A stretch of DNA of 64,000 bases from Methanoculleus receptaculi (GTDB taxonomy: Archaea; Halobacteriota; Methanomicrobia; Methanomicrobiales; Methanoculleaceae): positions 1,488,001-1,552,000 of the forward strand of contig NZ_CP137642.1 of NCBI RefSeq assembly GCF_033472595.1, read 5' to 3'. Positions within the stretch are counted from its first letter, which is position 1. Every line of letters begins with the position of its first letter. Below the pieces are notes generated by a model. It made no database searches and was not told where the DNA came from. It saw only the letters and a program-made list of their open reading frames with translations. A program made the position numbers and the translations under genes. This document shows, piece by piece, positions 46,313 through 64,000 of the stretch.

Positions 46313-46318
46313 GCTGTA

Positions 46319-47224
46319 TCACCCCCGGTAGAGCGCCATGAAGGCGTCCTCGATGCTAGGTTCTTCGAGCCGTATCTCCCGGATATGCAGCCCCTCTTCG
46401 GCGATGGCCGCGGCAAGCCTCTCCCGGATATCGCTCTTTGCCTGGATGACCGCGCGGTTCCCGTCCCGCTCGAACTCGATGATATCGGGGTCGCTGAGGT
46501 CAGGCAGGTCTTCTGCGGTCTCGACGACGATCCGGAACGTCTCGCCGCCGGGGGAGGCAAGCGTCCGGGCGACTTCGTCGATGGTTCCCTGCGCAACAAG
46601 CCTTCCTGCCGCAAGCAGCCCTACCGTCCGGCAGACCGCCCGGACCTCAGAGAGGATGTGGGAGGAGACAAAGACCGTCTTTCCCTCTCCGGCAAGCCGC
46701 GTGACGAGGTCGCGGTACTCCCTGACGCCCTCGGGATCGAGGTTTGCCGTGGGTTCGTCGAGGAAGAGCACTTTCGGATCGTTGATCAGCGCCTGGGCAA
46801 GTCCGAGCCGCTGTTTCATCCCGCGGGAGTACTCCCCTGCCTTCTGGGTGACGCCGTCGAGGTGGACGAGTCTGAGGATCTCGGCGATCCGTTCCTTCCG
46901 GTCTGCTGCGTTCATGTCGTAGAACCGGGCGAAGTAGTCCAGGTTCTGCTCGCCGGTCAGGTTCCCGTAGAACCCGACATCTTCGGGGAGGTAGCCTATG
47001 ATCCTCTTCACGGCGAGCGGGTCGTTTGCGACCTCGATCCCGTCGACAAAACACCGGCCGGCGGTTGGCTCGATCATGCCGGTGAGCATCAGGATCGTTG
47101 TGCTCTTCCCGGCACCGTTCGGGCCGAGGAAACCGAAGATCTCGCCTTCCCCGACCTCCAGGTTCAGGCCGTCTACGGCCGGTTTTCCGTTATACACCTT
47201 TGTAAGGTTCTCTGTTCTTATCAT
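46319..47224 (-). CDS. ABC transporter ATP-binding protein
   Basis: A 301-residue ABC ATPase. Walker A is GPNGAGKST near residue 34, the Q-loop follows at LPEDVGFYGNLT, the signature motif is YSRGMKQRLGLAQALI near 131, Walker B is KVLFLDEPTANLDP and the H-loop is FVSSHI. A C-terminal extension of about 80 residues (REIRLEEPSIEDAFMALYRG) is typical of ABC-2-type ATPases such as NatA. I prefer ATG 47224 to 47239, because GGAG lies six to ten bases upstream of it. It heads the operon with the permease and the NEW3 protein; whether it exports or anchors a surface component is unknown. Confidence 0.95.
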   Translation of the reverse strand: MIRTENLTKVYNGKPAVDGLNLEVGEGEIFGFLGPNGAGKSTTILMLTGMIEPTAGRCFVDGIEVANDPLAVKRIIGYLPEDVGFYGNLTGEQNLDYFARFYDMNAADRKERIAEILRLVHLDGVTQKAGEYSRGMKQRLGLAQALINDPKVLFLDEPTANLDPEGVREYRDLVTRLAGEGKTVFVSSHILSEVRAVCRTVGLLAAGRLVAQGTIDEVARTLASPGGETFRIVVETAEDLPDLSDPDIIEFERDGNRAVIQAKSDIRERLAAAIAEEGLHIREIRLEEPSIEDAFMALYRG

Positions 47225-47389
47225 TTCACACTCCGCCATGGCCGTTTCCTGCGGCGTCTTGAGGCAAGCTTCGACCTCAGTCTATTAACGTTTTCTGTGT
47301 CAATCATCTACACGTCGTGCGGCCAATCAAGATCAGCGAACCTGGAATATGGACTTTCCATCATTTTGGGGCATGGGGATGTGTGGGGG

Positions 47390-47892: not shown

Positions 47893-49101
47893 TCAGGGTC
47901 TTTGCCTGCGTAGGGCGACCGCGACCACAAGGGCGCCTATGACGCCGGCGGTTCCCCAGGCCGTTGCCGGGGTGGTGGTGGCCGCAGCCTCAGTTGTGGT
48001 CATTGGAGCGGTTTCTGTCTCCACGGGCGTGGTATCATCCCCTGCCCCGACTGCCGCGTAGGCCATAAGGGCATACTGACCGCCGCTTGAGACCGTGGCG
48101 GCGAGGCGCGTCTCCCCCTCATACCGGGAGGGCACCACCGTCCACGCCCCGTCCCGGTATACCGCGATGAACGGCGTGGTTGCGTTCACGCCCGAGAGGT
48201 TGAACGATAGGGCGGCGGCCGGGTCAAATGTGGCGGCTGACGGGGAGATGATGTATGATCCGGCAAGAACCTGCCACTCATCTGGAACCCCTGAGGGTGT
48301 GCTCCTGATGATCCGCAGGTCAGCAGGCGCCGCACCATCTATCGCATCATCCACGGTCTCAAGGGTGACAATCCCATCAAGCGAGGAGACCGTCACGGTT
48401 TCAGGCGCGGCGGTCGGTGTCTCCGTTGCGCCGCCACCGGAACTGCCGCCGGAACCACCGCTGGGCGGAGGGGTGGTGGGAGATGTTGTCGGTGTGGTGA
48501 TTGTGGGGTTGCCGACAAGGATCGTCTGGTCGGTCACGATGTTTCCATCCACAAGGGCAATGACATGTGCGGAGCCGTCGGTGATACCGGTGAGGCTGAA
48601 GGTGATCGCCCCCGAATCCGGGCCCATCTTGACCCCGGAGAACTCAAGAACAACGTTCACGGCATCGACACCTTCTTCCGGTGTCCCGAACGCCTTGATG
48701 AGTTCCATCGTGCCGGCGGGGAGGTTGCCAAGGCTCTGGCTGATCGATACGGTACCTGTCCTGCTGATCTGGGTTATTCGTTTGATGGTCTCCCCCTCGG
48801 AGGCCTCGATCCCGGCTTCCGTGACCGGGGAAGCACTGAGAACAACCTGAGGACTGTTCAGGCCAAAGGGCATGCTGACCTGGTTTGCCTGGTAGGTAAA
48901 CGAGGTCTCCCCTGCGACATCCACCAGCGACTCCATCCGGAGGGCAAAGACGCTCCCGTTGGAGAGACCGCTGTAGGAGACGGTGATGGTATCCCCCTCC
49001 TGGATCTGGGACGGGCTGATGGAGATGGAGACGGCAGAGGCGCCCGGAACCAGGCAACAGAGGAGAGAGAGAACTATGAGGCACAACACGTTAAATCGCA
49101 T
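47893..49101 (-). CDS. Surface protein with C-terminal membrane anchor, cohesin-system member
   Basis: A 402-residue exported protein. After a signal peptide (MRFNVLCLIVLSLLCCLVPGASA) come a beta-rich domain of about 190 residues (SISPSQIQEGDTITVSYSGLSNGSVFALRM...), a Thr/Pro/Gly-rich linker near residue 210, a second beta domain (residues about 240-360) and the anchor WGTAGVIGALVVAVALRRQRP. The second domain resembles the corresponding part of the neighbouring 1049-residue protein: both have S-P-S-A-x-F-D-P-A, then W-x-V-x-P and a closing strand. It is the last gene of the minus-strand surface cluster. Start at 49101 rather than 49164, since it gives a signal peptide. Cohesin identity of domain 1 is uncertain. 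Confidence 0.75.
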   Translation of the reverse strand: MRFNVLCLIVLSLLCCLVPGASAVSISISPSQIQEGDTITVSYSGLSNGSVFALRMESLVDVAGETSFTYQANQVSMPFGLNSPQVVLSASPVTEAGIEASEGETIKRITQISRTGTVSISQSLGNLPAGTMELIKAFGTPEEGVDAVNVVLEFSGVKMGPDSGAITFSLTGITDGSAHVIALVDGNIVTDQTILVGNPTITTPTTSPTTPPPSGGSGGSSGGGATETPTAAPETVTVSSLDGIVTLETVDDAIDGAAPADLRIIRSTPSGVPDEWQVLAGSYIISPSAATFDPAAALSFNLSGVNATTPFIAVYRDGAWTVVPSRYEGETRLAATVSSGGQYALMAYAAVGAGDDTTPVETETAPMTTTEAAATTTPATAWGTAGVIGALVVAVALRRQRP

Positions 49102-49221
49102 ATTCTCACATCGGATAATTCTCTCTCCAAGATACCTAAAAGTTACCGATACAGAAATCTGCAAACGGCAGACTCATGAGGAACTGCAAATGGTTGAGAC
49201 GCCACGAAAAAAAGTTGGTTT

Positions 49222-52200
49222 TCAGGGTTTTCTGGTGTAGTAGTAGACACCGACGGCGATCACCAGGATGATCACCACGGCGATGACCACGTATGTCCAG
49301 GGGAATCCTTCCGCTGGCGGCGTCACCGGGGTCGTCGTGGTGGGTGTGGTCGGTGTCACAATCGGCGTTGTGGGTGTTACGACGGGCGTCACCGCACCGG
49401 GCTCAACAAAGAGACCGAATACGGTGAAGTGCTCAACGCTTGCGGTGACAGTCCGGGTGGCCGGATCGACAACCGTCGGGACGGTCTCCCACTCCCCGGC
49501 CTCTTCGTCGTACCACTTCACCACGAGCGATGATGCGTCATACTCCGCCGCCTGCATTATCTCGCTCCACTGGTCCGCATTGAACGTGAAGATGAGGCTG
49601 ATGGCTGGATCAAACCTCGCTCCCGACGGCGAACAGACTACCGCATGGCCTGCGAAGGTGTAAGCGGCGCCGGCCGGGACAGCGGGGAGATCGGCGGGGT
49701 CAAGGTCATCGATGCTGACCTCGGAGAGCGGGTTGCCGTCAGCATCCACAGCGTAGGTTCCAAGCGGCAGGTTAAGTTCGGTGATGCCGGATGGGCTGCG
49801 GATGGTGTAGGGCCTGAGGAGTTTCCCCTCACTGCCGATCAACAGCGAGGAGGAGCCTGTCTCGGGTGCAAATCCGCCACGGCCGCCGCCACCGCCGCCG
49901 CTCGGGGGGGTGGTGGGCTGCGGCGTTGGGGTCGGAACTGGGCCGGCAAAGAGCTGCACCGAAGTGGAGCCGTAGGCGGTCAGATTCCCGCCGTTCTCAG
50001 CCAGCATGTGAACTCTGTAGGTGCCGCTGAGGAGATCGGATGTGGGGATGTTCAGCGTCGCCGCATTGGCGGCCCTGGCCGCGTTCCCGTAACCTTCCGA
50101 TATCCAGACGTTTGCACCGCTGTAGAGTATCTTCACCGTCTCGTTCCCGTCACCGAGCAGGTACATGCTCTGGAGGGACCCGGTTCCAAGCGTGGTCAGG
50201 TCGAGGGTCACATTACCGGTGTAGGTCGAGCCTTCACGGATCAGCACCGCGGCAACGTTCTGCGGAGCAGCACCGCCCCAGTTCACCACCACTGGGTCGC
50301 CAAGCGAGTACATGCCCGCCGACGTGGAGAACTGCGATGCCTCTTCAGTCACGACAAACGGCATCGCGGTGATGGCTGCGACCCGGTCGTTGTCAAGCGT
50401 GATGGCCATGATGACATACTCACCGGGGCCAAGCTCGGTCTGGTCGTAGCCGATTGGAAGACCCAGTCCATGTGTGGCGGTATTGAATCCCGCGGAGAGG
50501 TCGTAGGAGTTTGCCCTGATCATGGTGGGGAGATCCGTATTGAAGGTGAAGCCTCCACTGCCGCCGAGATCGGTGGCAGTGCTGCCAGTGATCCTGACAA
50601 ACTTGTATCCGTAACTCCCGCCGCCCTTGCCGTAGATGACGATCTTCTCCTTCGAGAGAGCCTGTTCAAGGGAACTCGTCGAGACCGATGAACTTCCGCC
50701 ACGGAGCACCTGATCGACAAAGGAACTGTTCGCCATCCCGATGATGATGGTGGCGTTGTCGATGTTCGGCACGTTGATAGCAAAGTTCAGCGTCCCGCCG
50801 GATGGTGCAACAAAGTAGGGCGCTCCGGTTGGGAAGGTGCCAGCGGTTATGTCGTCGTTTGCCCGGTTATCGACCACAACACCGGAACCTGCGGTCACCC
50901 GCTTCTGGAAGGTTCCAAGCGTCGGGAGGTTCATCTCGCCGGCGCCGCCGGAGATGCTGATCGCCTGAGCGACCTCGCTTGTAAAGACGTTATACGCCGC
51001 TGTCTTTGTCAGGTCCAACCCGGCGAACGTCCCCGCGGAAGACTCATCGATGTAGGCCAGGTAGTTGTTGTAGATGTGGAAGGGGGAACTGGTATTGCTG
51101 TTGCCCGCTTTATCAACGGCCGTCAGGGTTGCGTTCCGGTTGCCGAGGGTATTGCCCTGCGCGGAACCATACACGAGTGTACCGGGGGAGGACGTGTTTG
51201 ATGCCGAACCAATCCAGACCACGTCGGGGTTTGCATCGGTCACGGTATAGGCGATGGTCAGATCCTCGTTTGCCTCGGGGTAGCCGTCACCATCGGAATC
51301 GCTGATCCCTGTAACAACCACCACTGGCAGAACCGTATCCTTGGTGAATGTCTCTGTGGCGCTGAGTACAGAGGAGTCGATCGTGCTCGTCCCGTTGACC
51401 ACCACGGTGTGAACACCATCGGCAAGCGGTCCATAGGAACTGTAATCAAGCGTGATCACACCAGATGATGGTGTCGTGGTGTTGGCGGTAACATTGGTTC
51501 CGTCAAGGAACATCCGCACCCCTGTCACCTCGACATAGCGCGCGGATATCACCGGTTGTGTTTTATTGGTGAATGTGCCGTCCAGGTTCGGGTCGAAGGT
51601 GATACCGGATTCGGCAACTGTGATGTTACGGGTGGCAGACGCATGATTGCCGCTCGTGTCTGAGGCGCTGACCACCACTGTCCTGGCTCCAAGAGGAACG
51701 TTCGTTGCGGTGCCGCTAACAGTGCAGCCGCCGGTAATGGGTGTGATGGTCGGTGACGTGATCGCTACCCCGCCGACAGTGATACTGATGCTGGATTGGT
51801 CGACACCGCCCACATCGGTGATGGTCGCGGTGACCGCCACATCCTGCGGCACGGTCGCCCCGTCAGCGGGCGAGGTGATGATTATGTTGGGGGCGACTTC
51901 ATCAAGTGTGGTGAAGGTGCCGTTGACGGTGGTATAGGTGTATACCGGAACCCGGGACTCCTCGATATCGATGATTGTCAGGTTTAGAGTGGTCGAAGAC
52001 CCGTCGTTCTTAAGCGCGGTACAATCCAATCCGAAAAGTGGGCTGTCACCTGTGATATTGGAAGCACGCATATTGGCATACCCAACGACTTTTGCAAGGC
52101 CGGGCGTACTGAAACCATAGGTAATAGACCAATCATCCGGATCGAAAGTTCCGTTTCGACTTACGGACATCACTGATGCATCATATGCCACTCTTATATC

Positions 52201-52371
52201 AAATGCATCGAGACTCGAGGCACCACGTACATATACTCCAACAGGCGCACTTGTTCCTTGTTCCACATCATTTGCACTATCGATCACAATCTCCTGTGCA
52301 GAGACCGGACCGGTGCAGGCCATAAGAAGGACGAGTATAAGACCCGTCCATAACAAGCATCTGAAATTCAT
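49222..52371 (-). CDS. Large membrane-anchored surface protein with N-terminal cohesin-like domain
   Basis: A 1049-residue exported protein. After the signal (MNFRCLLWTGLILVLLMACTGPVSA) a cohesin-like domain of about 140 residues opens with IVIDSANDVEQGTSAPVGVYVRGASSLDAFDIRVAYDASVMSV, the typical strand order of cohesins. Several Ig-like repeats follow (PNIIITSPADGATVP..., SISITVGGVAI...), then a central part of about 400 residues that I do not recognise (from LAYIDESSAGTFAGLDL to LFAGPVPTP) and that resembles archaeal S-layer-type DUF3821-like proteins. A Thr/Pro linker leads into a C-terminal domain, and an anchor FPWTYVVIAVVIILVIAVGVYYYTRKP ends the protein. ATG 52371 is preceded by GGAGGATTGT. 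Confidence 0.8.
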   Translation of the reverse strand: MNFRCLLWTGLILVLLMACTGPVSAQEIVIDSANDVEQGTSAPVGVYVRGASSLDAFDIRVAYDASVMSVSRNGTFDPDDWSITYGFSTPGLAKVVGYANMRASNITGDSPLFGLDCTALKNDGSSTTLNLTIIDIEESRVPVYTYTTVNGTFTTLDEVAPNIIITSPADGATVPQDVAVTATITDVGGVDQSSISITVGGVAITSPTITPITGGCTVSGTATNVPLGARTVVVSASDTSGNHASATRNITVAESGITFDPNLDGTFTNKTQPVISARYVEVTGVRMFLDGTNVTANTTTPSSGVITLDYSSYGPLADGVHTVVVNGTSTIDSSVLSATETFTKDTVLPVVVVTGISDSDGDGYPEANEDLTIAYTVTDANPDVVWIGSASNTSSPGTLVYGSAQGNTLGNRNATLTAVDKAGNSNTSSPFHIYNNYLAYIDESSAGTFAGLDLTKTAAYNVFTSEVAQAISISGGAGEMNLPTLGTFQKRVTAGSGVVVDNRANDDITAGTFPTGAPYFVAPSGGTLNFAINVPNIDNATIIIGMANSSFVDQVLRGGSSSVSTSSLEQALSKEKIVIYGKGGGSYGYKFVRITGSTATDLGGSGGFTFNTDLPTMIRANSYDLSAGFNTATHGLGLPIGYDQTELGPGEYVIMAITLDNDRVAAITAMPFVVTEEASQFSTSAGMYSLGDPVVVNWGGAAPQNVAAVLIREGSTYTGNVTLDLTTLGTGSLQSMYLLGDGNETVKILYSGANVWISEGYGNAARAANAATLNIPTSDLLSGTYRVHMLAENGGNLTAYGSTSVQLFAGPVPTPTPQPTTPPSGGGGGGRGGFAPETGSSSLLIGSEGKLLRPYTIRSPSGITELNLPLGTYAVDADGNPLSEVSIDDLDPADLPAVPAGAAYTFAGHAVVCSPSGARFDPAISLIFTFNADQWSEIMQAAEYDASSLVVKWYDEEAGEWETVPTVVDPATRTVTASVEHFTVFGLFVEPGAVTPVVTPTTPIVTPTTPTTTTPVTPPAEGFPWTYVVIAVVIILVIAVGVYYYTRKP

Positions 52372-52396
52372 ACAATCCTCCACTAAATCTATGTTG

Positions 52397-53170
52397 CTAT
52401 CTTCTTTTTACTGCTATAAAGATTGCGATTAGCATCCCACCCAGAACCGGGATTGATGAGAGCGGCGTGGTCTGTGTGGATGCCGGGGGAGACGCCGACT
52501 GAGTCGGGGTCTCTCCCGTAACCACGGCCTCCCCGGTTGCTGGCGGAGGCGTCGTCGCGGTCACGGTGGGACTCCCGGTTGCAGGGGTTGTCACCGTCAG
52601 CGTCACGCTCACCGGCGGCGCCGTCCCGGTCACCTCTATGGGTGTGGGTGGCGCCCAGGGGACGTCGACCTCCGGTGGGACGGTGGCAGCGGGTGAGGGG
52701 GCGGGCGTCACAATCCCCTCCTGCGTCAACGGCGGGAGAGGTGTGGTTGGTTCCGATGTGGCCACCCGTCCCTCGACCGGGATCGGGTTACGGTCACCGT
52801 CATCCAGGTATTCCACCGAGATCCCGGTGACAGTGAAACCCGGCCCGGCCTGAATCCGTGCGATGGGAACTTGTATCGCCCTGTCGGACTCCGATGGTGG
52901 TGCCGGTATAAATCCAACTATCCGCATGGTCCCCGCGGAATTGTTTATGCTGGAGAATACCTCGAAAGGATCAACCGCCTCGACGGATGTCACCGGTGTT
53001 CCGGGGTCATAATTCACCTGAACCGTGAAAGCACTGACTGTATAAGGTTGATCGCCGGTGAAAACCAGGAGATACATCCCATCTTCCGGTTCAACGGTGA
53101 TTACTGATGCCCCCGCAGAAATGACCAGGAGGAACAGCCCTATTGCCGCGATGAACCAGTTTCGCTCCAT
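52397..53170 (-). CDS. Short cohesin-like membrane-anchored protein
   Basis: A 257-residue exported protein: a signal segment (NWFIAAIGLFLLVISAGASV), one cohesin-like beta domain of about 120 residues (VEPEDGMYLLVFTGDQPYTVSAFTVQVNYDPGTPVTSVEAVDPFEV..., later RIVGFIPAPPSESDRAIQVPIARIQAGPGFTVTGISVEYL), a 100-residue Thr/Pro/Ser linker and a C-terminal anchor (TPLSSIPVLGGMLIAIFIAVKRR). It stands between the thioester protein (16 bases upstream) and the 1049-residue protein (25 bases downstream), so these are co-transcribed. The N-terminal ligand-binding half would present a dockerin partner near the membrane. Confidence 0.78.
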   Translation of the reverse strand: MERNWFIAAIGLFLLVISAGASVITVEPEDGMYLLVFTGDQPYTVSAFTVQVNYDPGTPVTSVEAVDPFEVFSSINNSAGTMRIVGFIPAPPSESDRAIQVPIARIQAGPGFTVTGISVEYLDDGDRNPIPVEGRVATSEPTTPLPPLTQEGIVTPAPSPAATVPPEVDVPWAPPTPIEVTGTAPPVSVTLTVTTPATGSPTVTATTPPPATGEAVVTGETPTQSASPPASTQTTPLSSIPVLGGMLIAIFIAVKRR

Positions 53171-53185
53171 GCATCCCTCAAAAAA

Positions 53186-56100
53186 TTACTGGTAGTGGGT
53201 GTCAATATCACCTACAAGGTACCACGCCACATCCCTTGCATCACCGCTGGAAACAGATCCATCGTCACCAACGTCCGCATAGAACCGATCATTGTAGGTG
53301 AAGGTTATCTCATCCACCAGATACCACGCGATGTCACGCGCATCCCCTGCGGTCACCCCCCCACCGTTGACATCACCAAGTGCACGCCCAATGAACTCAA
53401 CAACGATCTGGTCGATGCTTCCGGTATCAACGTCCGGAACGCTCAGGACGCCACCCGAGATGTAACCGCTGGCATCGAACGGACCCTGCCATCCAGACGT
53501 GTTGTGGTAGGAGTATGCAACTGTGTCGTTGGCATACGCAGTCCCGATGGCCCGTGTGATTGTCGGCACCTCCACCGATATGGTGGCAGTCCCGCCGCTG
53601 CTGGTGATGGTCGAGTTGAAGGTCTTCTTCGCCGGGGTCACCGCGCTCCAGTAGTTCGTGCTGTCTTCGCTGATGGTGTCCTCGATTACTGGCGGCATGA
53701 CCCTGAAATCACCGGCATCGCCGACAACCATGGAGATGTGCGGGATAGTGGGATCGGTCGCAATCTGGGCGGAATACTCTGTGGACTCACCTGTTCTGAC
53801 GTAGAGGGTGGTGTTCACCGTGCCGGGGGTATGCATGATAGAGACGTTGTGGTCGCCCTCAAGCACCTCCCTGGTGATGTTGCTTGTTCCGCTTGCCACC
53901 GGCACGCCGTCGATATAGAAATCGGCCTCTAGCGGTGCCAGGTTCTCATCGACCACAGAGAGGGTCAGGTTGCCGTATCCCTTCACAGAGGCAGTGGCGT
54001 CTCCAAGCGCCATGTTCTCGTCATCGTACATCGGATAGATGCGCGCCTCCACGGTCACTTCACCGGCCTTCGTGAAATTCAGCGGGACATAGAAGTTCTT
54101 CACTTCGCCTCTGACCACGCTCGGCTTTGATTCGTCATCGGAACCCGGGTAGACGTAAAGCGTCTTCGCCGTAGCGTTGTACATGTGAGATATGTAGACC
54201 CTTGATCCGCCGCCATCCATGTAGTAGGCCATATCGGCGGCCATCTCACCTCCATCGAACGCTACGCCATCCCGGGTCGGGATCTCAAGGATCAGCATCG
54301 TCCGGTCATCCCCGGTGTTGTTGACCGTGAAGGCCACATCGACCGTGTCATTGACGACAATCCCGTCCTCAGGTGCCGGCACCGTCACGTCCAGGAAGAG
54401 GTCGGTCGCTATGGGGTCGATGAACTCATCGGGGATTGTTGCAAAGGCAACGGACTTTGGCACCTTCTGCCGGCTCTGGACAGCGACAACGAGCTCGGCC
54501 GCATCCATCGCTGCATCGCTCTTCCCGGTTATGGTGACCTTACCCGTGTGGTTTGCTCCAGGGGTGCTGCCGTAGAGAGCGGCGATCTCGCTGCCGTTGA
54601 GGTTGAATGATACCCTGGGGTTGGTGCTGTTGAACGTGTAGGTCTGCGGCGCACGGATCACCGCCCCGCTGCTGTCCTCAACACCGATCTGAACATTGAA
54701 ATTGACGGTTGAAGGTATCTGGACCTGGGTCAGCGCTTCGATCACCGCTGCGGTTCCGCGGGTGTTGCCCCAGCGGCCGTTCGTGTCATAAACGCTCACC
54801 AGGTAACGGATACCCCCGCGAACGGTCTCGTTCTCGGCCGGGAGGCCTGTCCTGTTCAGGGCCAGCACCGCGTTTGCGGTGTCTTCGTAGGCCCAGGAAG
54901 AGCCCCAGTGGTAGCCGTTGGCGGCATCGCCCTGCCGGAGTTCAAGGAGCCTATCCTGGAGTTCACCAAGTTTCGCATCCGCCTGGGCATCGAGGGTAGC
55001 GTTATCAGCGTAGTGGTCGCGGATGGCGTCTATACCGAATACGGCGTAGGCAATCGGCGTTGCTGACTGGGAGGTGTAGTCTCCACGAACCAGATAGTCA
55101 AACGACCTGTTCAGCGACTCGTTCACCCTCCGCTGGCCTTCAGGGGTCAGGTAGCCGAACTCACCGACAAACTTCTCGGATATGAACCCGGTCCACTCGT
55201 AAGAGTTGCTGATGTAGCCCCAGTCAGACCAGCCGCCGTTGGTCCCCTGCCTCTTCAACAGCCAGACGGTGCTTGCCGTCAGGTTGATCTCACTTTCGTT
55301 TGTAAGGTCGAAACCCCAATATGTGGGATCATTATCCATGTCCTGCCTTAACTCGCTGAAGACATAATTAGGATAGAGTGTGTAGAACATCGATGGAGCC
55401 GAGTTCTGACCCCACGCCCAGCCACCGGACTGGTCACCGTAGTTAGTGTATATCGGCAGCTGCTGAGCGTTGTAGCCGTCCGGCGCCTTCATCTGGTTGT
55501 AGGCCTGTTGCATCTTGGCCTGGTAGGTGGCGTTGCGCTCATCGTTCAGCTGGCCGCGTGACTCGTAGTACTGCTTCACCCGCAGCACCGCAAGCGCCGG
55601 GCTCATCGTCTGCTCCGGGCAGCCATGCGGATAGCCGATCAGGTAGTCAAGCCCCTCAAGGGTGCGCCCCTCCGCTCCTGCAGCGGCGGTGATGACAACC
55701 TCGCGCCCCTCAAACGGCTCGCGGTTGAAGACATCAAACAGGATCTCGCCGTTGGCCTCATTATCCAGTATGGTCGAGTTGAGCACCTTGATGTCCACAT
55801 TCTGTTCACGGACAACGATCGTGCCGTTCACATGGGTCTGCTCCCCCCGGGACTCAAGATTGATGGAGTAGTTGTAGGTTCCAAGCTCCCTCGGCCGTAT
55901 ATAATACCACCCGACACTGTTCCAGGACGATGAGTAGGAGTAGATCGACATCTCTGCAGGGTAGTAGTAGTAAAGATCGAACGGCGTGTCCTTGCTCAGG
56001 TCAACGGCGGTGCCGTTTGCATACCAGATCGATAGGCTGGCGTTGACGTAGCCGGGCTGGTTGGCAGTGAAGTAGGTGCCAAGCCAGAAGTACTGGTCCT

Positions 56101-58285
56101 GAACTGCGGTGACGTTGTAGCCATACCACCTCTCCCAGTTCTGCCTGTTATCCGTCGTGATGTTCAGATCGTAAGGGTCGATCCTGACCTGAGTGCTGGC
56201 AGTGTTACCATCCTGGACATCATCGCCGGCGATCCCTGCCGCCAGGGTGTGGATGCCTGTGTCAGCAGGTTTCCAGGTGTCCACAGTGAAGTAGCGGCTC
56301 TGGTATGCCCCGAGAGCAACTTCATCCTGGCTCCAGATAACCGTCCCGCCGAGAGTGACGTTTGCCGAGACGTTCACCGGGGTTGCCTTCGGGTTGTTGA
56401 CGTAGACGGTGGAGGTGACGTTGCTGCCCACGGCTGATGCCGTCGGCGCCCAGATATAGACACGGGCATCGGTTAAACGATCCTGAATGAGGGTGCCCTT
56501 CGTGATATCAAGTTCAAGGTATCTGTTGTTGTTGGTTTTGACGTAAGCAGCCGTTGTCGAACCGATCTCTGATACCCGTCCTGAATCGGACTGGGCTATG
56601 AACCGGAGATCCACCACTTTTGTATCGTCCGAGAGGGAGAGACCGCTACCCTCTACCAGAAGACGCCCATAGCCTGTGCTCCGGACGCTCACGCCCGACT
56701 GCGCCCCCTCATACCCGTCGTAACGGGCAACCGATGGATCGTAGGTCACAGGGATGCTGAAGGAGACAACCGGTGCATCGCTTGAGATGTTTGAGAGCTC
56801 GATGGGAAACAGACTGCCCCCTTCGCTGATCACATTCAGCCGGGGGAAGATAACCGTCACCGGCTTAAAGGAGGCATACTCCTTCTCGATGGTCTTTGAG
56901 ACCGTCCCGCTATCCGGGTATTTGATCCGCTCTTTAGGCTTCTCTCCGTTCGGTCCGGCGGCGTTTGCCTCCACGGTGTAGGTCACGCTCCCGGCATACC
57001 GATCGAGATTGATGGTCTCTGTCATTGTCCAGTTATCACCGGGCAAAAGAGCAGGGACATCATAGGTTTCGTTCACGCCGTTCTTTGAAACGCGGAGCCA
57101 TGTTGGCTCAGAGTCTACGCCAGGGGCTATGTTCTCAACACCGTAGGTCACACGGTATGTGCCCGGCACCACATCCTCCTGGATGGTGGTATTGCTGCTG
57201 GAAAGCCCGGAGACCAGCGTGATATCCAGGACCGGCCGGAGGTCGGTGTAGGTGACGGTTGTCTGCGCCTCGATGAAGTTGTTGTAGTAACGAATCTCCT
57301 CGATCGTGTGGTCAGGATTGATATCGATTGAGACCTGCTTCGTCCCGGGCGAGATATCGGCTCCGGCGGTTATTATCAGGGTCACGGAACCGGTCTCCTT
57401 CACCTCAACGACCTCGGTGCCCGAGTAGTTGGGATCGATCGTTATATCGGTAAAGATTGTGTAATTGGCGCCGGCTGCGATATCATCCGTAATTGTGTAG
57501 TTCTCACTTTCACCTACAAACGTGACCTGCGTCACGATCTCATCGGTCACACCGGCCCCGCCGATGTTTCCAATCACGAAGGTCGGGTTCATGTAGATGG
57601 TGCCGTTGCTGTACTTCTTGACATACTGCGGCGGTGCAGGGTCGAGGTATCCGACCAGATCAGGCAGCGGCGGTGGGGTGGTATTCAGCCATCCCTCTGT
57701 AACATGTTCAAAATGTGACTCGTTAAACTCAGTGCTGTAGGTTGCTTCCGGGTAGAGAGAGTAGTTGCCGGGAGTCTCTCTATAGGTGTCGAAATGGATC
57801 TCGGCTATCTGCACCGGTGCCGCCCCCACGGTAAAAGGTGCCGTGGTGGTGATTGCAAACTGCAGGTGTCCGGGATGATCCGCCATGTATGTGAGGTTGG
57901 CACCCGCAAGCGGCCCGGTGAGGTTGACGGACTTCACCGTACCGGCGCCCTGACCATAGAACACCCATACACCGATCCCCTCGATCTCGTCAATGTTCGC
58001 CACCGATACCGGGATCACGGCGGGTTCGCCCGCTTCAACCGTCGCCGATCCGAAGATTATCGTTGATGCCGGGTTTGGCGGCGCTGCAACCGTCTCCTCT
58101 GCGGCTGCAGGGAGATCTTCATCGAGAGACGCTTCCGTCTCCGTGGGTTCAACATCAAGCCCTGGAGCAACCGTCATGCTCCCGTTCTCAGGAGCGGTCG
58201 CCCCCTCCGTCCCCGCGGCGGCAACACCGCCGATGAGACAGATTGAGAGGATACACATTATCAGAATCTGCACATAATGTTTCAT
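53186..58285 (-). CDS. Giant surface protein: cohesin-like domains, thioester domain and dockerin
   Basis: A 1699-residue exported protein with a signal sequence (VQILIMCILSICLIGGVAAAGTEG). Near residues 73-195 lies a cohesin-like domain (STIIFGSATVEAGEPAVIPVSVANIDEIEGIGVWVFYGQG...), then CARDB-type sandwiches near 207-440, a second cohesin-like region near 470-590 (LFPIELSNISSDAPVVSFSIPVTYDPSVARYDG), more sandwiches, and near 880-1150 an alpha-helical region with the motif YPHGCPEQTM (Cys889 and Gln892). That is the alpha-2-macroglobulin/complement thioester signature with the surrounding toroid helices. The end has two dockerin-like loops, DVNGGGVTAGD (one residue short) and DVGDDGSVSSGD, each followed by AWYLV. 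It has no transmembrane anchor. Confidence 0.82.
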   Translation of the reverse strand: MKHYVQILIMCILSICLIGGVAAAGTEGATAPENGSMTVAPGLDVEPTETEASLDEDLPAAAEETVAAPPNPASTIIFGSATVEAGEPAVIPVSVANIDEIEGIGVWVFYGQGAGTVKSVNLTGPLAGANLTYMADHPGHLQFAITTTAPFTVGAAPVQIAEIHFDTYRETPGNYSLYPEATYSTEFNESHFEHVTEGWLNTTPPPLPDLVGYLDPAPPQYVKKYSNGTIYMNPTFVIGNIGGAGVTDEIVTQVTFVGESENYTITDDIAAGANYTIFTDITIDPNYSGTEVVEVKETGSVTLIITAGADISPGTKQVSIDINPDHTIEEIRYYNNFIEAQTTVTYTDLRPVLDITLVSGLSSSNTTIQEDVVPGTYRVTYGVENIAPGVDSEPTWLRVSKNGVNETYDVPALLPGDNWTMTETINLDRYAGSVTYTVEANAAGPNGEKPKERIKYPDSGTVSKTIEKEYASFKPVTVIFPRLNVISEGGSLFPIELSNISSDAPVVSFSIPVTYDPSVARYDGYEGAQSGVSVRSTGYGRLLVEGSGLSLSDDTKVVDLRFIAQSDSGRVSEIGSTTAAYVKTNNNRYLELDITKGTLIQDRLTDARVYIWAPTASAVGSNVTSTVYVNNPKATPVNVSANVTLGGTVIWSQDEVALGAYQSRYFTVDTWKPADTGIHTLAAGIAGDDVQDGNTASTQVRIDPYDLNITTDNRQNWERWYGYNVTAVQDQYFWLGTYFTANQPGYVNASLSIWYANGTAVDLSKDTPFDLYYYYPAEMSIYSYSSSWNSVGWYYIRPRELGTYNYSINLESRGEQTHVNGTIVVREQNVDIKVLNSTILDNEANGEILFDVFNREPFEGREVVITAAAGAEGRTLEGLDYLIGYPHGCPEQTMSPALAVLRVKQYYESRGQLNDERNATYQAKMQQAYNQMKAPDGYNAQQLPIYTNYGDQSGGWAWGQNSAPSMFYTLYPNYVFSELRQDMDNDPTYWGFDLTNESEINLTASTVWLLKRQGTNGGWSDWGYISNSYEWTGFISEKFVGEFGYLTPEGQRRVNESLNRSFDYLVRGDYTSQSATPIAYAVFGIDAIRDHYADNATLDAQADAKLGELQDRLLELRQGDAANGYHWGSSWAYEDTANAVLALNRTGLPAENETVRGGIRYLVSVYDTNGRWGNTRGTAAVIEALTQVQIPSTVNFNVQIGVEDSSGAVIRAPQTYTFNSTNPRVSFNLNGSEIAALYGSTPGANHTGKVTITGKSDAAMDAAELVVAVQSRQKVPKSVAFATIPDEFIDPIATDLFLDVTVPAPEDGIVVNDTVDVAFTVNNTGDDRTMLILEIPTRDGVAFDGGEMAADMAYYMDGGGSRVYISHMYNATAKTLYVYPGSDDESKPSVVRGEVKNFYVPLNFTKAGEVTVEARIYPMYDDENMALGDATASVKGYGNLTLSVVDENLAPLEADFYIDGVPVASGTSNITREVLEGDHNVSIMHTPGTVNTTLYVRTGESTEYSAQIATDPTIPHISMVVGDAGDFRVMPPVIEDTISEDSTNYWSAVTPAKKTFNSTITSSGGTATISVEVPTITRAIGTAYANDTVAYSYHNTSGWQGPFDASGYISGGVLSVPDVDTGSIDQIVVEFIGRALGDVNGGGVTAGDARDIAWYLVDEITFTYNDRFYADVGDDGSVSSGDARDVAWYLVGDIDTHYQ

Positions 58286-58374: not shown

Positions 58375-61300
58375 TTAAAGTGAGGTGATCTTCCCCACAT
58401 AGTAGTAGGCGATCTTCGCTGCATCGGCGGCGTCCACCTTCCCGTCGCCGTTGAAGTCCGCCTCCATGTTCACGTCTGTTAGCCCGAGGGCCATCCAGGC
58501 CACCCGTGCAACATCCCCTATATCAACGCGCCCGTTCCCATTGAAGTCGCCCTTCACGTGGGGCGCCGTCATCTGGAGAGAGTAGCCCGAACGGGTGGTA
58601 AAGACAAGGTCAGGCGTGCCGCCGCCGATCTCCCAGTAGACTTCCGCGTTCTCCGGCACATTCAACGTAAGAGTTGCACGCCCGTTTGCATCGGTCTCCT
58701 GAATACTTGAACCTCCGGAGTGCCCATAAATGGAGCCTCCACCATAGATCGGGTAGATCTCCCAGGCCAGGTAGACAGGTATACCCGCCTCACCGTTCTC
58801 CATCCGAACCTCGATGCTCTTTGACCCGGGGGTATCGTAATACTGCTCCGGCGGTGTCACTATGGAGAGGGGGGTTGCTGCGGTATAGATCGATATCCAT
58901 GTCCAGGATCCCTGTGAGGCTAACTCCTTCATGTAATGGGTGATGGCGTATGATCCGTAGGTAACCGCACCTGCATATGAACCACCGCCGGTCGTATACT
59001 GTGAGGCAAGTGTCGTCGCGCCTGTACTGTAATAATGATGCATTCCCCCTATCTGCCGGTTAACCTCGAAGATCCCGGGCATCGGGACGATCTCACCATC
59101 GGCGTTCGTGACGGTGGACGAGGCCACAAGGCTCCAGCCTACGTACTCCCCGATCAGCAGGACGATCGGCCCCTCGGGAGAGAGACTGGTCCATCCATAC
59201 GCATCGCCGGATAGGCCGACCACCTGGACCTGGTTGTAATATTCAAAGTCTCCCGGGAACCGGGCCGCTACAGGGATGGTGACCGAACCGTAACCGTCGG
59301 TCCCGGTGGTCACCACCGTGCAGCCATCAGATGTGTAGAGGTAGACCGTCCCGGCCAGCGGTGCACCCGTATCACCGTCCTCAAGGTAACAATCGACGTC
59401 GATCGCATCTCCCGGATCAAACCGCTTTGTGGTCTCATTGTAGGTGCTGTTCCATGACCCCCCGATTGAGAGCCACCGGTCATGGGTCGCCTCTGGGACG
59501 GAGGCGTGGTGCATGAACGGATCCAGGTTGACCAGGATTATTGCAACGGTCTCATAATACCCAGACCCATATTCCTGTACCTCCTGTACCACCATCCCCA
59601 CGTATGCATCCTCTGGAACAGGGATGCTCAGTTTCCCTATACCGTTTGTGGTCGTGAAGGTGACCTGCTCCATCGACTCCTGCAGGTTGCTGATCTCCTC
59701 CATAAACTCCGGACTGAAACCTCCGGCCTCGCCTCCGCGAAGTCTTGCGGTCTCTTCGGGGAATTGAGCAGCAAGCGACTTCACTTCAGCCTCACGGAGC
59801 CAGACAACAGACACCGAATGGGTGCTGTCTGCCACAGGGGCACCGCCAAGAGATTCATACATCTTGACCACGAATGTCGCGTTGCCGCCAGGTTTTGCCG
59901 ATATCATGTATGGCGCGACCTCGGTGACCGTCTCAGCGTAATCGATAAAATCGATCCAGCCCGCGCCGACCTCCGCCTCTTCGCTCATGTTATCCGCGGG
60001 ATAGAGGTAGACAGGACTCCCGTACCGATCCTCTCCAAGCATCTCCCGTGTTATATCCGCGGATATCGTCCCGTTCACCGGGATGAATGTCTGACTGTAG
60101 GAACCGATCTGCATCACCACATCACCGGTGTAGGGCGCCATGGTGGCGGGGTTCACAAGCGTGTAACTGACTGTGGCGGTCGCGTTGACTGGCACCCGAT
60201 ATTCTTTGTCTGGTGTGTCAAAAGCCTTTAACGGACTCCTGTAGCCATCGTAGGTGTATATATCAGCCGAAACCACATTACCATGTGTATCGCTCACGTT
60301 GTACTGGTAAGAGATGTAACCCCCTCCCACAGGCACGAACGAGGCGATGGCCAGCCCGTTCTCATCCGTCATCACGGTGATGTTCAGCACGGTGGCGGTG
60401 GAATTTGTTACTCTAAACCAGATCTCCTCATCGGCAACGGGCCCATCATCCCAGGCGATCGCGGTGATGTTGTTCTCAACGCCGGGCTTGAGGTATGTGT
60501 ATGCGCATCCGGCGTACAGCCCGGGCTGATCATACACCGGAGGCTGGAGCGGGGTGATGTTGTCCACCGCCGCCCAGGCGCTCACCCGGCCGGCACCGTA
60601 GTCGGTGTCAGGACCGGTCCGGCCGAGGTCGATCGCCGTCCGCTGGAGAACTGATCTGATCTCGGCGGGGGTAAGCGAACTGTTCACATCGAGCATCAGG
60701 GCAACCACCCCCGAGACATGGGGACAGGCCATGGAGGTGCCGGACATCGTCGCGTAACCGCCCCTACGGTCTGTCGATACAACATACGATCCAGGAGCGA
60801 CCAGATCCGGCTTTATCCTCTGGTTTTCGCCCCATCCCACAGGGCCGCGGCTGCTGTACGCCGCTATATAGTCAATAGACTCATCAATCGCTCCGACGGC
60901 GATTGCCTTCTCCGCGGCGGCGGGAGCGCCGATGGTGCGAAGCCCGTAATCTCCATCATTCCCGGCTGAGGTTACCACCACTGTGCCGTTCAGATCGACT
61001 ATCCGGTTCACAGCCTGCGACTGAAGAGACGTTCCGTTATCCGCATAACAGGTGGTGACGCTGAAATAGACTGGGTACTCCTCGGGGATGCAGCTCCAGC
61101 CGTAGGAAATCCACTCACCCTCATCCTCTTCACCCTCATCCTCTGCATCGTCGTAATACCCGATCTCGGGGATCGCCATCTCGTCGACATACCAGCCATA
61201 CCAGGCAACGCTATAATCAGTCTCGTAGCGGAGGCGTAACTCGATCACCCCGCCGCAGTATGGTGTCAGATCGGCGGTCGAAACGCCCTGCCCCACACCT

Positions 61301-62637
61301 GTAAAGGTGAGGAGAGTATCCCACTCTTCAGTCTGTGGGTTGCAAACCTCAACATAACCGTTATCCCAGCCCTCCTCGATGTCATACCAGGAGGTGATCT
61401 GGAAGGTGGCCGATTCCACCCCCGTCAGGTTGAACTCCCGCGTCAGGGTGTTATTAAGGTAATCAACGGATCCCGACCACCATACATGGTCGCTTGCGTT
61501 GAGCGAAGGGTTCTCTATGCGGAGCGTCCAGTTGCCCGGCTCGAGGGGTTCATCCCCGATGTACTTCACCATCCCCACATAATCGGGCACCGGAGTAGTC
61601 CACCAGTCGCAGTCCACACCCGGGTAGACCGTTCCACCGGGCGTCTCCAGGGTGACATTCAGCGCGGAATAAAGCGGCGCCTCCACCTCAAGGCAGATGA
61701 AGCCGGGGTCGAAACCATCATTCCAATTTTCAACAGGGATCTCAATCTCGAGGCCGGAGTCGATGGCCAGGTAATCCCCATCCACATAAAACCCGATGCT
61801 CCCACCGCTGTAGGATATAACATCCGCCCCAAGTTCCACGGCGCGCTCAAAACCGCGGATGACGGTAGAGGAGTTCGCACGCCCATTCGAGTCGAAGACC
61901 TTGATACCGATCAGGCGAGCTCCTGGTGCAACCCCGGTCTTTGTCCCGGATGCACCCGTCCCGGCGATCGTCCCGGCACAGTGGGTGCCATGGCCGTGAT
62001 CGTCGTAGGGCTCTGTAAGGTCGTTTACAAGGTCATCCCAGTCGACAACCTTGCCGGCGAGGTCGGGGTGATCGGCATAGATCCCGGTGTCCACAACGGC
62101 CACGGTCACCCCTGTGCCGTTAAACCCGTTCTCCCAGACCTCGGGCGCCTCGATCCAGTCCACGCCCCAGGCGATATCCTCTGAGTCCATCGGCGGAGGG
62201 TTGATGTAATCGATCGTCTCGCCCGCCGGTTTGTAGAAGTTAATGCCACGCTCACCCTTCTCCGAAGGGGTGTCGGCATCGATGGTGACAATCCGGTCCG
62301 GCACCACCATGGCAACATCGCTTCGGGCAGCGATCTTCTGCACCTCCTCGGGACTGAGGGTGGCGGCAACAGCGTTAACCGACCATAGCGGTGTCACATC
62401 AGCAGCGCCCATCTTATCCAGGGTCGCTATCACGTCTCCCTGGGACTGATCGGCAAACGCCGCAAGTTCAGCAGGCCCCGCGCTTGCAGGAGCCTGCTCT
62501 TTCATCACGATTATCACATGCTGCGCCTCACCGGTGAGCGGTGCAGCAGACGCAGCCCCTACCAGAAGCAGGGAAAGCAGAATGAGGTGTAGTATAACAC
62601 GCACGGCAACCACATCAGGATAAATGAAATACCTCAT
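58375..62637 (-). CDS. Large subtilisin-like protease with inserted domains and C-terminal dockerin
   Basis: A 1420-residue exported S8 peptidase. A signal peptide (VRVILHLILLSLLLVGAASA) and an I9-type propeptide (HVIIVMKEQAPAS...VAMVVPDRIVTID) precede the catalytic domain. Catalytic residues are Asp183 (AVVDTGI), His216 (GHGTHCAG), oxyanion Asn560 (SAGNDG) and Ser635 (GTSMACPHVSG). The distance from His to Asn is over 340 residues, owing to an inserted region that resembles a proprotein-convertase P-domain (NWTLRIENPS) and a MAM-like sandwich (WDNGYVEVCNPQTEEWDTLLTF). Beta domains follow (700-1350), and the end has two clear dockerin loops, DFNGNGRVDIGD and DFNGDGKVDAAD. Substrate unknown. 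Confidence 0.93.
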   Translation of the reverse strand: MRYFIYPDVVAVRVILHLILLSLLLVGAASAAPLTGEAQHVIIVMKEQAPASAGPAELAAFADQSQGDVIATLDKMGAADVTPLWSVNAVAATLSPEEVQKIAARSDVAMVVPDRIVTIDADTPSEKGERGINFYKPAGETIDYINPPPMDSEDIAWGVDWIEAPEVWENGFNGTGVTVAVVDTGIYADHPDLAGKVVDWDDLVNDLTEPYDDHGHGTHCAGTIAGTGASGTKTGVAPGARLIGIKVFDSNGRANSSTVIRGFERAVELGADVISYSGGSIGFYVDGDYLAIDSGLEIEIPVENWNDGFDPGFICLEVEAPLYSALNVTLETPGGTVYPGVDCDWWTTPVPDYVGMVKYIGDEPLEPGNWTLRIENPSLNASDHVWWSGSVDYLNNTLTREFNLTGVESATFQITSWYDIEEGWDNGYVEVCNPQTEEWDTLLTFTGVGQGVSTADLTPYCGGVIELRLRYETDYSVAWYGWYVDEMAIPEIGYYDDAEDEGEEDEGEWISYGWSCIPEEYPVYFSVTTCYADNGTSLQSQAVNRIVDLNGTVVVTSAGNDGDYGLRTIGAPAAAEKAIAVGAIDESIDYIAAYSSRGPVGWGENQRIKPDLVAPGSYVVSTDRRGGYATMSGTSMACPHVSGVVALMLDVNSSLTPAEIRSVLQRTAIDLGRTGPDTDYGAGRVSAWAAVDNITPLQPPVYDQPGLYAGCAYTYLKPGVENNITAIAWDDGPVADEEIWFRVTNSTATVLNITVMTDENGLAIASFVPVGGGYISYQYNVSDTHGNVVSADIYTYDGYRSPLKAFDTPDKEYRVPVNATATVSYTLVNPATMAPYTGDVVMQIGSYSQTFIPVNGTISADITREMLGEDRYGSPVYLYPADNMSEEAEVGAGWIDFIDYAETVTEVAPYMISAKPGGNATFVVKMYESLGGAPVADSTHSVSVVWLREAEVKSLAAQFPEETARLRGGEAGGFSPEFMEEISNLQESMEQVTFTTTNGIGKLSIPVPEDAYVGMVVQEVQEYGSGYYETVAIILVNLDPFMHHASVPEATHDRWLSIGGSWNSTYNETTKRFDPGDAIDVDCYLEDGDTGAPLAGTVYLYTSDGCTVVTTGTDGYGSVTIPVAARFPGDFEYYNQVQVVGLSGDAYGWTSLSPEGPIVLLIGEYVGWSLVASSTVTNADGEIVPMPGIFEVNRQIGGMHHYYSTGATTLASQYTTGGGSYAGAVTYGSYAITHYMKELASQGSWTWISIYTAATPLSIVTPPEQYYDTPGSKSIEVRMENGEAGIPVYLAWEIYPIYGGGSIYGHSGGSSIQETDANGRATLTLNVPENAEVYWEIGGGTPDLVFTTRSGYSLQMTAPHVKGDFNGNGRVDIGDVARVAWMALGLTDVNMEADFNGDGKVDAADAAKIAYYYVGKITSL

Positions 62638-62813: not shown

Positions 62814-63572
62814 TTACCGTCTCTGAAAGATACATAGAGCAGCCGCGATAGTAAGGGCAAGAACGGCTGCAACCGTGGAGAGCGGTGCTGGTGCCGGGGT
62901 CGTCGGTGTTTCATCACCAGCATGAGTTGGAGGGGCGGTCGCCGCGGTTTCAGGGGTCACGGTTTCATCACCTCCGGTTTGCGGGGTGGTCATCACCGGT
63001 GCAGGTGTCTCACCGGTTCCAGCGGTCATGGTGGCCGCCGCAGGTGCCGGCGTAGATGTCTCGCCGCCCCCTGCGGCAGACCCGGTTCCACCTTCACCTC
63101 CGCTGCCCGCCGCCGCTGTGCCGGCGGTAACCTCGCCTGCGGCAACGCTCTCAAACGCGATCGAGGAGAACGCCGGGAAGTCGCTCCAGCGGGCATCCTC
63201 AAGTGTCAGAGAACTCGAACCGCCTCCCGCCGCCGAGAAGGCCGCCTCCACCAGCGGTGCCGGGGACGGTATATCGACGGGGTCGGGAAAGATCACCAGC
63301 ACCCTGGCCCGCCCCGCTTCGTTCGTGTTCAGGGTCATGGATGCATCGGCATACGCTGACGCCAGTTGTATCCCATCAAGGGTCACCACACCCGGATCAT
63401 ACCGGAGATCGAACTGGACGCTTGTGGCCTGAGATATGCCCGAGACCATCACAGGCAACCATCTCCCGTCCGCCGACCCGGAAGGCGCCTCAAGCAGGGA
63501 TGCAGCCTGCACACCACCACCCGCAAGCGAGGTGCAGAGTATCAGAAGGATTGCAAGGCTTCGTGTTTGCAT
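62814..63572 (-). CDS. Membrane-anchored cohesin-like protein, first gene of the surface cluster
   Basis: A 252-residue exported protein. The signal peptide (TRSLAILLILCTSLAGGGVQA) is followed by a cohesin-like beta domain of about 120 residues (LPVMVSGISQATSVQFDLRYDPGVVTLDGIQLASAYADASMTLNTNEAGRARVLVIFPDPVDIPSPAPLVEAAFSAAGGGSSSLTLEDARWSDF), with the YDP and closing hydrophobic strand patterns of cohesins. A Gly/Thr/Ala/Pro-rich linker leads to the anchor PLSTVAAVLALTIAAALCIFQRR. It lies 176 bases upstream of the subtilase gene and is the obvious candidate to hold the subtilase dockerin. The start at 63572 is chosen over 63638 because it gives a proper signal peptide. Confidence 0.78.
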   Translation of the reverse strand: MQTRSLAILLILCTSLAGGGVQAASLLEAPSGSADGRWLPVMVSGISQATSVQFDLRYDPGVVTLDGIQLASAYADASMTLNTNEAGRARVLVIFPDPVDIPSPAPLVEAAFSAAGGGSSSLTLEDARWSDFPAFSSIAFESVAAGEVTAGTAAAGSGGEGGTGSAAGGGETSTPAPAAATMTAGTGETPAPVMTTPQTGGDETVTPETAATAPPTHAGDETPTTPAPAPLSTVAAVLALTIAAALCIFQRR

Positions 63573-63627
63573 GATATAACTCCATTCCGAGAGCATATAA
63601 AAATCTGCTGCTATGACCGGATGCCTC

Positions 63628-64000
63628 GGGGCCATCAAACCAGTACCCCCACGGCTTTATAAACATCTCCTTGGGCGGATTCGGGGCGGCATCGCCGCGC
63701 ACCCTCCACAAACCGGAGCCGGGGGGGCCGGGGTTTCTGCGAGACGCCATTACGGCGAGATGCGGAGAGGGGAGACCGACGAAAGGGGTATCCGGGTGAG
63801 ATGGTGGGGAGGAGACCGTCAGTTCGCGACCTCACCTGACACTCGATGAGATCGTGTTTCACCCCTGGCACGGCTATCCAGGGCCAATCGCCATTCACTC
63901 GCCCGCCCCCTCGAGCGGCCGGGCGGTGGGGGTGGCTCGACTCGCTGTATGGAAAACCGTTCCTGGTTGAAACGCAGGAGACAGGGGAAGGGGCGTCTCC
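63628..64000 (+). repeat. Dispersed copy of the mosaic repeat, forward orientation, cut by the window end
   Basis: Block 63628-63700 matches 40583-40649, as described there. Further on, CGCGACCTCACCTGACAC near 63827-63842, TCCAGGGCCAATCGCC, CCCGCCCCCTCGAGCGG (63900-63916), CGGTGGGGGTGG, GGAAAACCGTTC and GAGACAGGGGAAGGGG follow the order of the array. The hairpin is damaged (one arm is CGGCCGGGCG). No gene is visible in 63573-64000. Confidence 0.65.

Follow-up and report, generated by a model that had tools for sequence, protein, structure and literature searches.

What might a secreted archaeal protein do that appears to join a complement-type thioester domain (TED) to cohesins and a dockerin? 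The question is raised by P0001, which is encoded in a 64,000-nt stretch of the Methanoculleus receptaculi genome (GCF_033472595.1, NZ_CP137642.1, positions 1,488,001-1,552,000), here called the window; coordinates below are those of the window. With slightly better than even confidence, we read P0001 as a surface-anchored covalent capture device, assembled by cohesin–dockerin contacts and accompanied by a tethered subtilase.

The thioester domain of P0001

P0001 is encoded by a minus-strand open reading frame with an ATG start. The gene is single-copy in a genome of 1.98 Mb on one contig (99.8% completeness), and the reverse strand of the locus is interrupted by stops. A Pfam scan of the whole protein placed TED_complement above its cut-off and a dockerin slightly under, with CARDB weak, while an NCBIfam scan of P0001 gave no match. 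The chain was divided as follows.

53186..58285, minus strand: P0001, secreted thioester protein with cohesins and dockerin, 1699 aa
58214..58285, minus strand: signal peptide, residues ~1-24, judged by eye
57665..58078, minus strand: cohesin 1, residues 70-207, by orthologues; the window copy has diverged
56876..57664, minus strand: two CARDB/Ig-like regions, residues 208-470, tentative, from sequence
56498..56866, minus strand: cohesin 2, residues 474-596, by profile matches
56186..56473, minus strand: CARDB-like region, residues 605-700, weak Pfam match
55781..56185, minus strand: MG7-like domain, residues ~701-835, by AlphaFold2 (AF2) model and structure comparison
55676..55780, minus strand: first half of CUB, residues ~836-870, by alignment and model
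54722..55675, minus strand: TED, residues ~871-1188, by Pfam and model
55604..55633, minus strand: YPHGCPEQTM motif, residues 885-894 (Cys889, Gln892), by sequence and homologue alignment
54431..54706, minus strand: second half of CUB, residues ~1194-1285, by alignment and model
53966..54418, minus strand: MG8/receptor-binding-type domain, residues ~1290-1440, by model and structure comparison
53189..53386, minus strand: dockerin with symmetric repeats, residues 1634-1699, by Pfam and profile

The first-pass annotation had pointed to a Cys-x-x-Gln thioester motif within a long helical region. The motif was found as described, with Cys889 and Gln892 in YPHGCPEQTM, and PF07678 (TED_complement) matched residues 876-1028 over its cut-off (E 5e-8). 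Because the Cys and Gln of this CxEQ motif are unchanged in 18/18 orthologues compared and Cys889 is the sole Cys of the mature chain after the signal peptide, the motif is not a chance occurrence.

The AF2 model covers residues 601-1440 and was built on 34 aligned sequences, all of them from the window or related loci. It reached a mean pLDDT of 71.9 and a pTM of 0.65. The helical region was predicted to adopt the toroid of a multi-helix TED and not some other fold; most of its blocks have a pLDDT of 72-93, but a single loop drops to 45; residues 601-730 of the model are unreliable. Foldseek returned CD109, C5, TEP1 and C3 as top matches of the model, and a second structure comparison gave TEP1 (Z 30.8), A2ML1 (29.4) and C3 (29.0). 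The TED alone was superposed on human C4dg with Z 25.8 and 3.3 Å over 279 residues. Model residues ~101-820 superpose along the C-terminal half of TEP1 and A2ML1, with the TED inserted in a CUB domain whose flanking strands align, followed by MG8. In sequence searches, the P0001 family profile found cobra venom factor, CD109 and C3, and the CxEQ motif aligned with that of CD109 and with bacterial TED proteins. Since the fold comparison agrees with profile matches in which CxEQ aligns to CD109, residues ~701-1440 are assigned as a predicted MG7-CUB-TED-CUB-MG8 unit, the C-terminal half of an alpha-macroglobulin. As modelled, the identification of a true alpha-2-macroglobulin/complement thioester domain holds.

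A squalene-cyclase-like enzyme was considered and rejected: the likeness is limited to the toroid, and CxEQ and the CUB/MG8 frame indicate the complement family. The occurrence of the alpha/alpha toroid in thioester-less enzymes (squalene cyclases) also bears on a reading in which no thioester chemistry takes place, the TED being a structural or binding domain and P0001 only a scaffold protein. Thioester formation in P0001 is a prediction from sequence, which leaves room for that reading. Yet no homologue has lost the Cys or the Gln, although cysteines elsewhere in these proteins are almost lacking, and we consider this reading very improbable.

TED proteins of the order Methanomicrobiales form a long family, to which P0001 belongs, and a short family (~1275 aa). 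A Cys-His loop, W-S/T-W-S-A-x-V-C-H, was detected in 9/10 short-family TEDs (loci L150-L159; the pattern missed L156) and is absent from the long family, including P0001. In one profile alignment its His falls near the C3-type loop position, where a His in animal thioester proteins favours hydroxyls (PMC7864068). Lacking this His, the long-family TED of the window may tentatively be expected to prefer amines. The short-family loop could also be a reactivity switch or form a disulfide.

Cohesins, dockerin and the region before the TED

At least two cohesin-like regions and a terminal dockerin-like pair had been noted in the chain, with scaffold potential. For the cohesin at residues 474-596, PF00963 was matched in 18/18 homologues at E <= 0.1, and the family profile reached solved cohesins at 5.6e-9; the window copy scored E 3e-4 and 21.4 bits, below the cut-off of 24.1. 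The other region, residues 70-207, is a putative cohesin by virtue of its orthologues, 3/4 of which match PF00963 (best 5e-7); the window copy alone gives no match. Against a PF00404 cut-off of 22.9, the dockerin scored 19.8 bits (under) in the whole-protein scan and 25.6 bits (over) in the genome scan. Its family profile found solved dockerins at 4e-10, and its two calcium-loop repeats are those of a type I dockerin. As sequence assignments, the cohesin at 474-596 and the terminal dockerin are thus firm, and the cohesin and dockerin matches bear out the suggested scaffold potential.

The proposal that P0001 is a protease trap fared less well. Trapping by alpha-2-macroglobulin depends on MG domains that form a ring and on a bait region (PMC4498604, PMC7864068), and no Pfam match to an MG1-6 ring or bait region was obtained in the whole of P0001. 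In the long family, two cohesins stand before MG7, the first followed by more than one CARDB-like region and the second by one; in the short family just a cohesin, one CARDB-like region and an MG7-like domain precede the CUB. Because the ring and bait region are not recognised and cohesin and CARDB-like regions occupy their place, P0001 is not classed as a protease-trap inhibitor, although, judging from its domains, it could still conjugate proteases.

Defence against foreign proteases, also suggested by the first-pass annotation, is a rival and not the best reading. P0001 would then be a surface inhibitor that conjugates attacking proteases to shield the envelope and, when docked, guards or regulates the neighbouring subtilase. 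Its TED, CUB and MG8 are arranged as in A2M inhibitors and a dockerin would keep inhibitor and protease together, but the unrecognised MG1-6 ring or bait domain counts against it.

A conserved module with anchored cohesins

The subtilase reported beside P0001 is the next gene upstream (P0004), on the same strand and 89 bp away; TED and coh3 genes are separated by 15 bp, and coh3 and big2 by 13 bp. The following genes accompany P0001 in the window.

58375..62637, minus strand: P0004, dockerin-bearing S8 subtilase with an I9 propeptide and a MAM domain; the Asp, His and Ser motifs are present
52397..53170, minus strand: P0003 (coh3), predicted single cohesin, linker and C-terminal hydrophobic tail, by model; unrecognised by Pfam
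49222..52383, minus strand: P0002 (big2), N-terminal cohesin, Ig-like repeats and C-terminal membrane helix, by Pfam
62814..63638, minus strand: P0005 (anchor5), single cohesin and C-terminal membrane helix, by Pfam
47893..49164, minus strand: P0007 (p7), C-terminal membrane helix; an accessory gene, frequently near the module

Sequence searches with the coh3 profile matched neither a Pfam family nor a solved structure. Its predicted fold is that of a cohesin: the best Z was 11.5, the top 46 rows were all cohesins, including an Archaeoglobus cohesin, and the best Foldseek matches were again cohesins (E 2.5e-4). The model has a pLDDT of 74 and was built from 2 sequences. The cohesins of big2 and anchor5 exceed the Pfam cut-off in the genome scan, and all Pfam dockerin (2) and cohesin (3) matches of the genome fall in this operon. 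Since Pfam misses coh3, further undetected cohesins in this genome are possible.

Eighteen loci from the order were compared. TED, coh3 and big2 are adjacent in 18/18 (in L155, coh3 was detected by tblastn over its first 131 residues only), with coh3 at ~250 aa and big2 at 1030-1410 aa, both ending in C-terminal hydrophobic tails. A dockerin-bearing S8 subtilase lies upstream of the TED gene, adjacent in 13/18 loci and one gene away in L147; in L146 it is found beyond big2 and p7. The gene upstream of TED in L156 (L156:11392-14154) has kept the subtilase C-terminal part and dockerin and lost the protease domain, and the stretches examined at L148 and L149 showed no subtilase. What never varies is the TED protein together with coh3 and big2, the two anchored cohesin proteins. 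A subtilase plus inhibitor pair was rejected as the core because the subtilase is missing or reduced at some loci. That the TED core is kept at such loci also argues against the surface inhibitor, which we consider unlikely.

The TED protein was detected in 25/199 sampled genomes of the order (8 long, 17 short), so its distribution is patchy. Among 61 genomes, cohesins were found in 13/13 with TED and in 5/48 without (Fisher 1.3e-9), and of the 34 cohesin matches in genomes with TED, 27 are located no more than 15 kb from its gene. A named-genome survey returned mainly distant bacterial TED proteins, and the short type by name only in Methanogenium marinum. Many Methanomicrobiales genomes without detected cohesins have a single dockerin, in a protein of ~860-910 aa.

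Several neighbouring genes were noted as well. In L142 a cluster of DUF58, MoxR AAA, DUF4350 and DUF4129 genes (L142:9504-14097) lies upstream of the module, and DUF58-type genes and a DUF1616 gene occur near it in other loci too. In the window, positions 43797-47239 (same strand, downstream of the module) encode an ABC-2 exporter (ATPase, permease) and an NPCBM-associated/CARDB membrane protein, a possible link to export or repair.

Outside Methanomicrobiales, dockerin neighbours of TED genes were observed at L165:4706-6034, L166:5142-6407 and L167:4847-14398. L165 and L166 were called haloarchaeal-type from the character of their sequence alone; in both, a separate dockerin protein is encoded next after the TED gene, and L165 continues with a PGF-CTERM protein. 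Such a dockerin protein might also be what lies behind arCOG14565, an uncharacterised neighbour reported by Makarova et al. 2021. In L167, from a further archaeal family, the TED neighbours are an S8 subtilase with MAM and a dockerin-like end, and a PGF-CTERM protein. On L062, a contig labelled as a Nanohaloarchaea metagenome-assembled genome (the label may be wrong), a long-type TED precedes two cohesin-like proteins, the nearer of which has a dockerin-like end.

Docking code, capture mechanism and known systems

Partner choice by the dockerins of cellulosomes is set, in each repeat, by the residues immediately preceding a conserved Asp. For this recognition pair in the TED dockerins, the two repeats agree at 0.81 within a protein and at 0.08 between proteins, a pattern whose observed value was reached by 0/20000 shuffles; 17 distinct first-repeat pairs were counted in 18 species. 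In the subtilase dockerins the two repeats differ, and their codes are conserved and other than the TED codes. Such a pattern points to TED dockerins that are symmetric and bind a private partner in two modes. With TED-body divergence removed, dockerin divergence followed that of coh3 (partial r 0.40, p 0.0005) and, under the same correction, that of the N-terminal cohesin end of big2 (partial r 0.50, p 0.0001). The dockerin followed the big2 C-terminus, used as a control (0.19, p 0.035), and the internal cohesin (0.18, p 0.09) much less closely.

L148 and L156, from two species of one genus, have a long and a short TED, respectively, at one chromosomal place. The flanks are 82-93% identical, anchor5 77% and p7 88%, whereas coh3 is 22% identical and big2 is alike over only 228 residues (82%). 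To judge from these identities, it looks as if whole cassettes had been exchanged. In other locus pairs coh3 is usually the least conserved module gene (27-37%, versus 56-72% for TED), with the exception of L150/L157, where coh3 is 78% identical and the dockerin codes are similar too. The fast change of both docking code and TED version suggests selection for diversity or a private, species-specific assembly.

Species-specific TED versions at one locus would also suit a covalent adhesin, whose thioester fastens the methanogen to a partner cell, host or particle, the subtilase being a mere neighbour or maturation protease. P0001 is indeed a long multidomain surface protein, predicted to be anchored, and the short-family His near the C3-type loop could favour glycan hydroxyls (PMC7864068). 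Nevertheless, the window's own long family is without that His, and subtilase linkage is frequent in both families and recurs in the further archaeal family. We regard the adhesin as decidedly unlikely.

We therefore return to the anchored capture device, for which the following mechanism is proposed. P0001 would be a secreted complement/TEP-like thioester protein, and would serve a complex on the cell surface as its covalent capture arm. Cys889 and Gln892 would form a thioester held quiet by contact with MG8. The TED dockerin would plug into the adjoining anchored cohesins, coh3 and/or big2, while the subtilase would dock by its own, differently coded dockerin, so that TED and subtilase come to sit next to each other. 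The thioester would be exposed either by contact or by cleavage, for which the tethered subtilase may be responsible, and could then bond covalently to protein or glycan belonging to a foreign protein, a virus or a cell nearby; the bonded target would be held for cleavage or adhesion.

Several points weigh against this proposal. The predicted thioester bond might fail to form, or be lost by hydrolysis once the protein is mature, and proximity of genes is no demonstration of a common complex. The subtilase is not obligatory, being reduced, or not found in the stretch examined, at L148, L149 and L156. The Fisher test of the association between TED and cohesins takes no account of phylogeny. The assignment of region 208-470 is weak, and degenerate MG-like domains are possible there. 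Moreover, the MG8 region tracks the dockerin too (0.36, p 0.003), and the dockerin, coh3 and the big2 N-terminus are contiguous; their co-divergence may therefore reflect one recombining block or cassette instead of binding.

A bolder reading of the module is possible, though we hold it as doubtful. It would be an anchored, complement-like immune or conflict device of archaea, in which a thioester opsonin acts with an activating or digesting subtilase; the two would be assembled on the surface by a species-specific cohesin–dockerin code that diversifies by cassette replacement, and related versions would occur in other archaeal families.

TED proteins with CxEQ were already reported from archaea by Makarova et al. 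2021, who suggested that they act in immunity or conflict (PMC8416519). The archaeal A2M homologues of that study are alike in having a TED with CxEQ, a signal peptide, variable domains and neighbourhoods with surface proteins and endoproteases, and Methanomicrobia and Halobacteria are named among them. Its main text makes no mention of dockerin, cohesin, subtilisin or subtilase, and describes neither a conserved module nor a dockerin code nor allele replacement. Archaeal TED proteins are thus already known from what that text presents; their dockerin/cohesin wiring, like the combination of macroglobulin, dockerin and cohesin, was not found in the literature searched, the coverage of which is incomplete. 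New here is that Methanomicrobiales conserve a module in which a subtilase and a TED protein, each with a dockerin, are encoded together with two anchored cohesin proteins, one of them missed by Pfam.

The order and fold of MG7-CUB-TED-CUB-MG8 and the position of CxEQ are shared with complement C3/C4, insect TEP1, CD109 and A2ML1, as far as the model goes; unlike these, P0001 has no recognised MG1-6 ring or bait/anaphylatoxin region, and cohesins and a dockerin are added. Gram-positive thioester adhesins attach covalently to surfaces via an internal thioester and belong to a different TED family. A protein of that type was rejected for P0001, the predicted fold of which is the complement toroid and in which no such Pfam match was found. 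Bacterial type I A2Ms (E. coli ECAM, PMC4498604) resemble P0001 in the YPYGCxEQ-type motif of bacterial relatives and in a TED between CUB halves, but ECAM has a full MG keyring and bait domain (PMC4498604), neither of which was recognised in P0001.

With cellulosomes, the module shares a dockerin-bearing enzyme, cohesin-bearing anchors and symmetric dockerin repeats, comparable to the dual-binding-mode dockerins named in the title of 2vn5. A cellulosome was nevertheless rejected, since the module is without a glycoside hydrolase; its enzyme is a subtilase, and each anchor carries one cohesin in place of a long scaffoldin. A parallel in archaeal non-cellulosomal surface wiring is provided by the cohesin/dockerin proteins of anaerobic methanotrophic archaea (ANME; PMC9012536); the part of that account drawn on here describes substrate-binding proteins, S-layer domains and multi-cohesin scaffolds, and does not name a TED protein. 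If the wiring proposed here is true, it would give a concrete function to archaeal non-cellulosomal cohesins and dockerins, a matter not yet settled in the field (PMC9012536), and the pairing of each dockerin with its cohesin becomes testable. If the thioester is active, the module would be a covalent capture system on a methanogen surface, within the barely explored chemistry of archaeal surface conflict and adhesion. Complement/alpha-macroglobulin thioester proteins have been studied mostly in animals and bacteria, and cohesin–dockerin pairs mostly in cellulose digestion; here both are joined with a protease in one conserved archaeal gene module.
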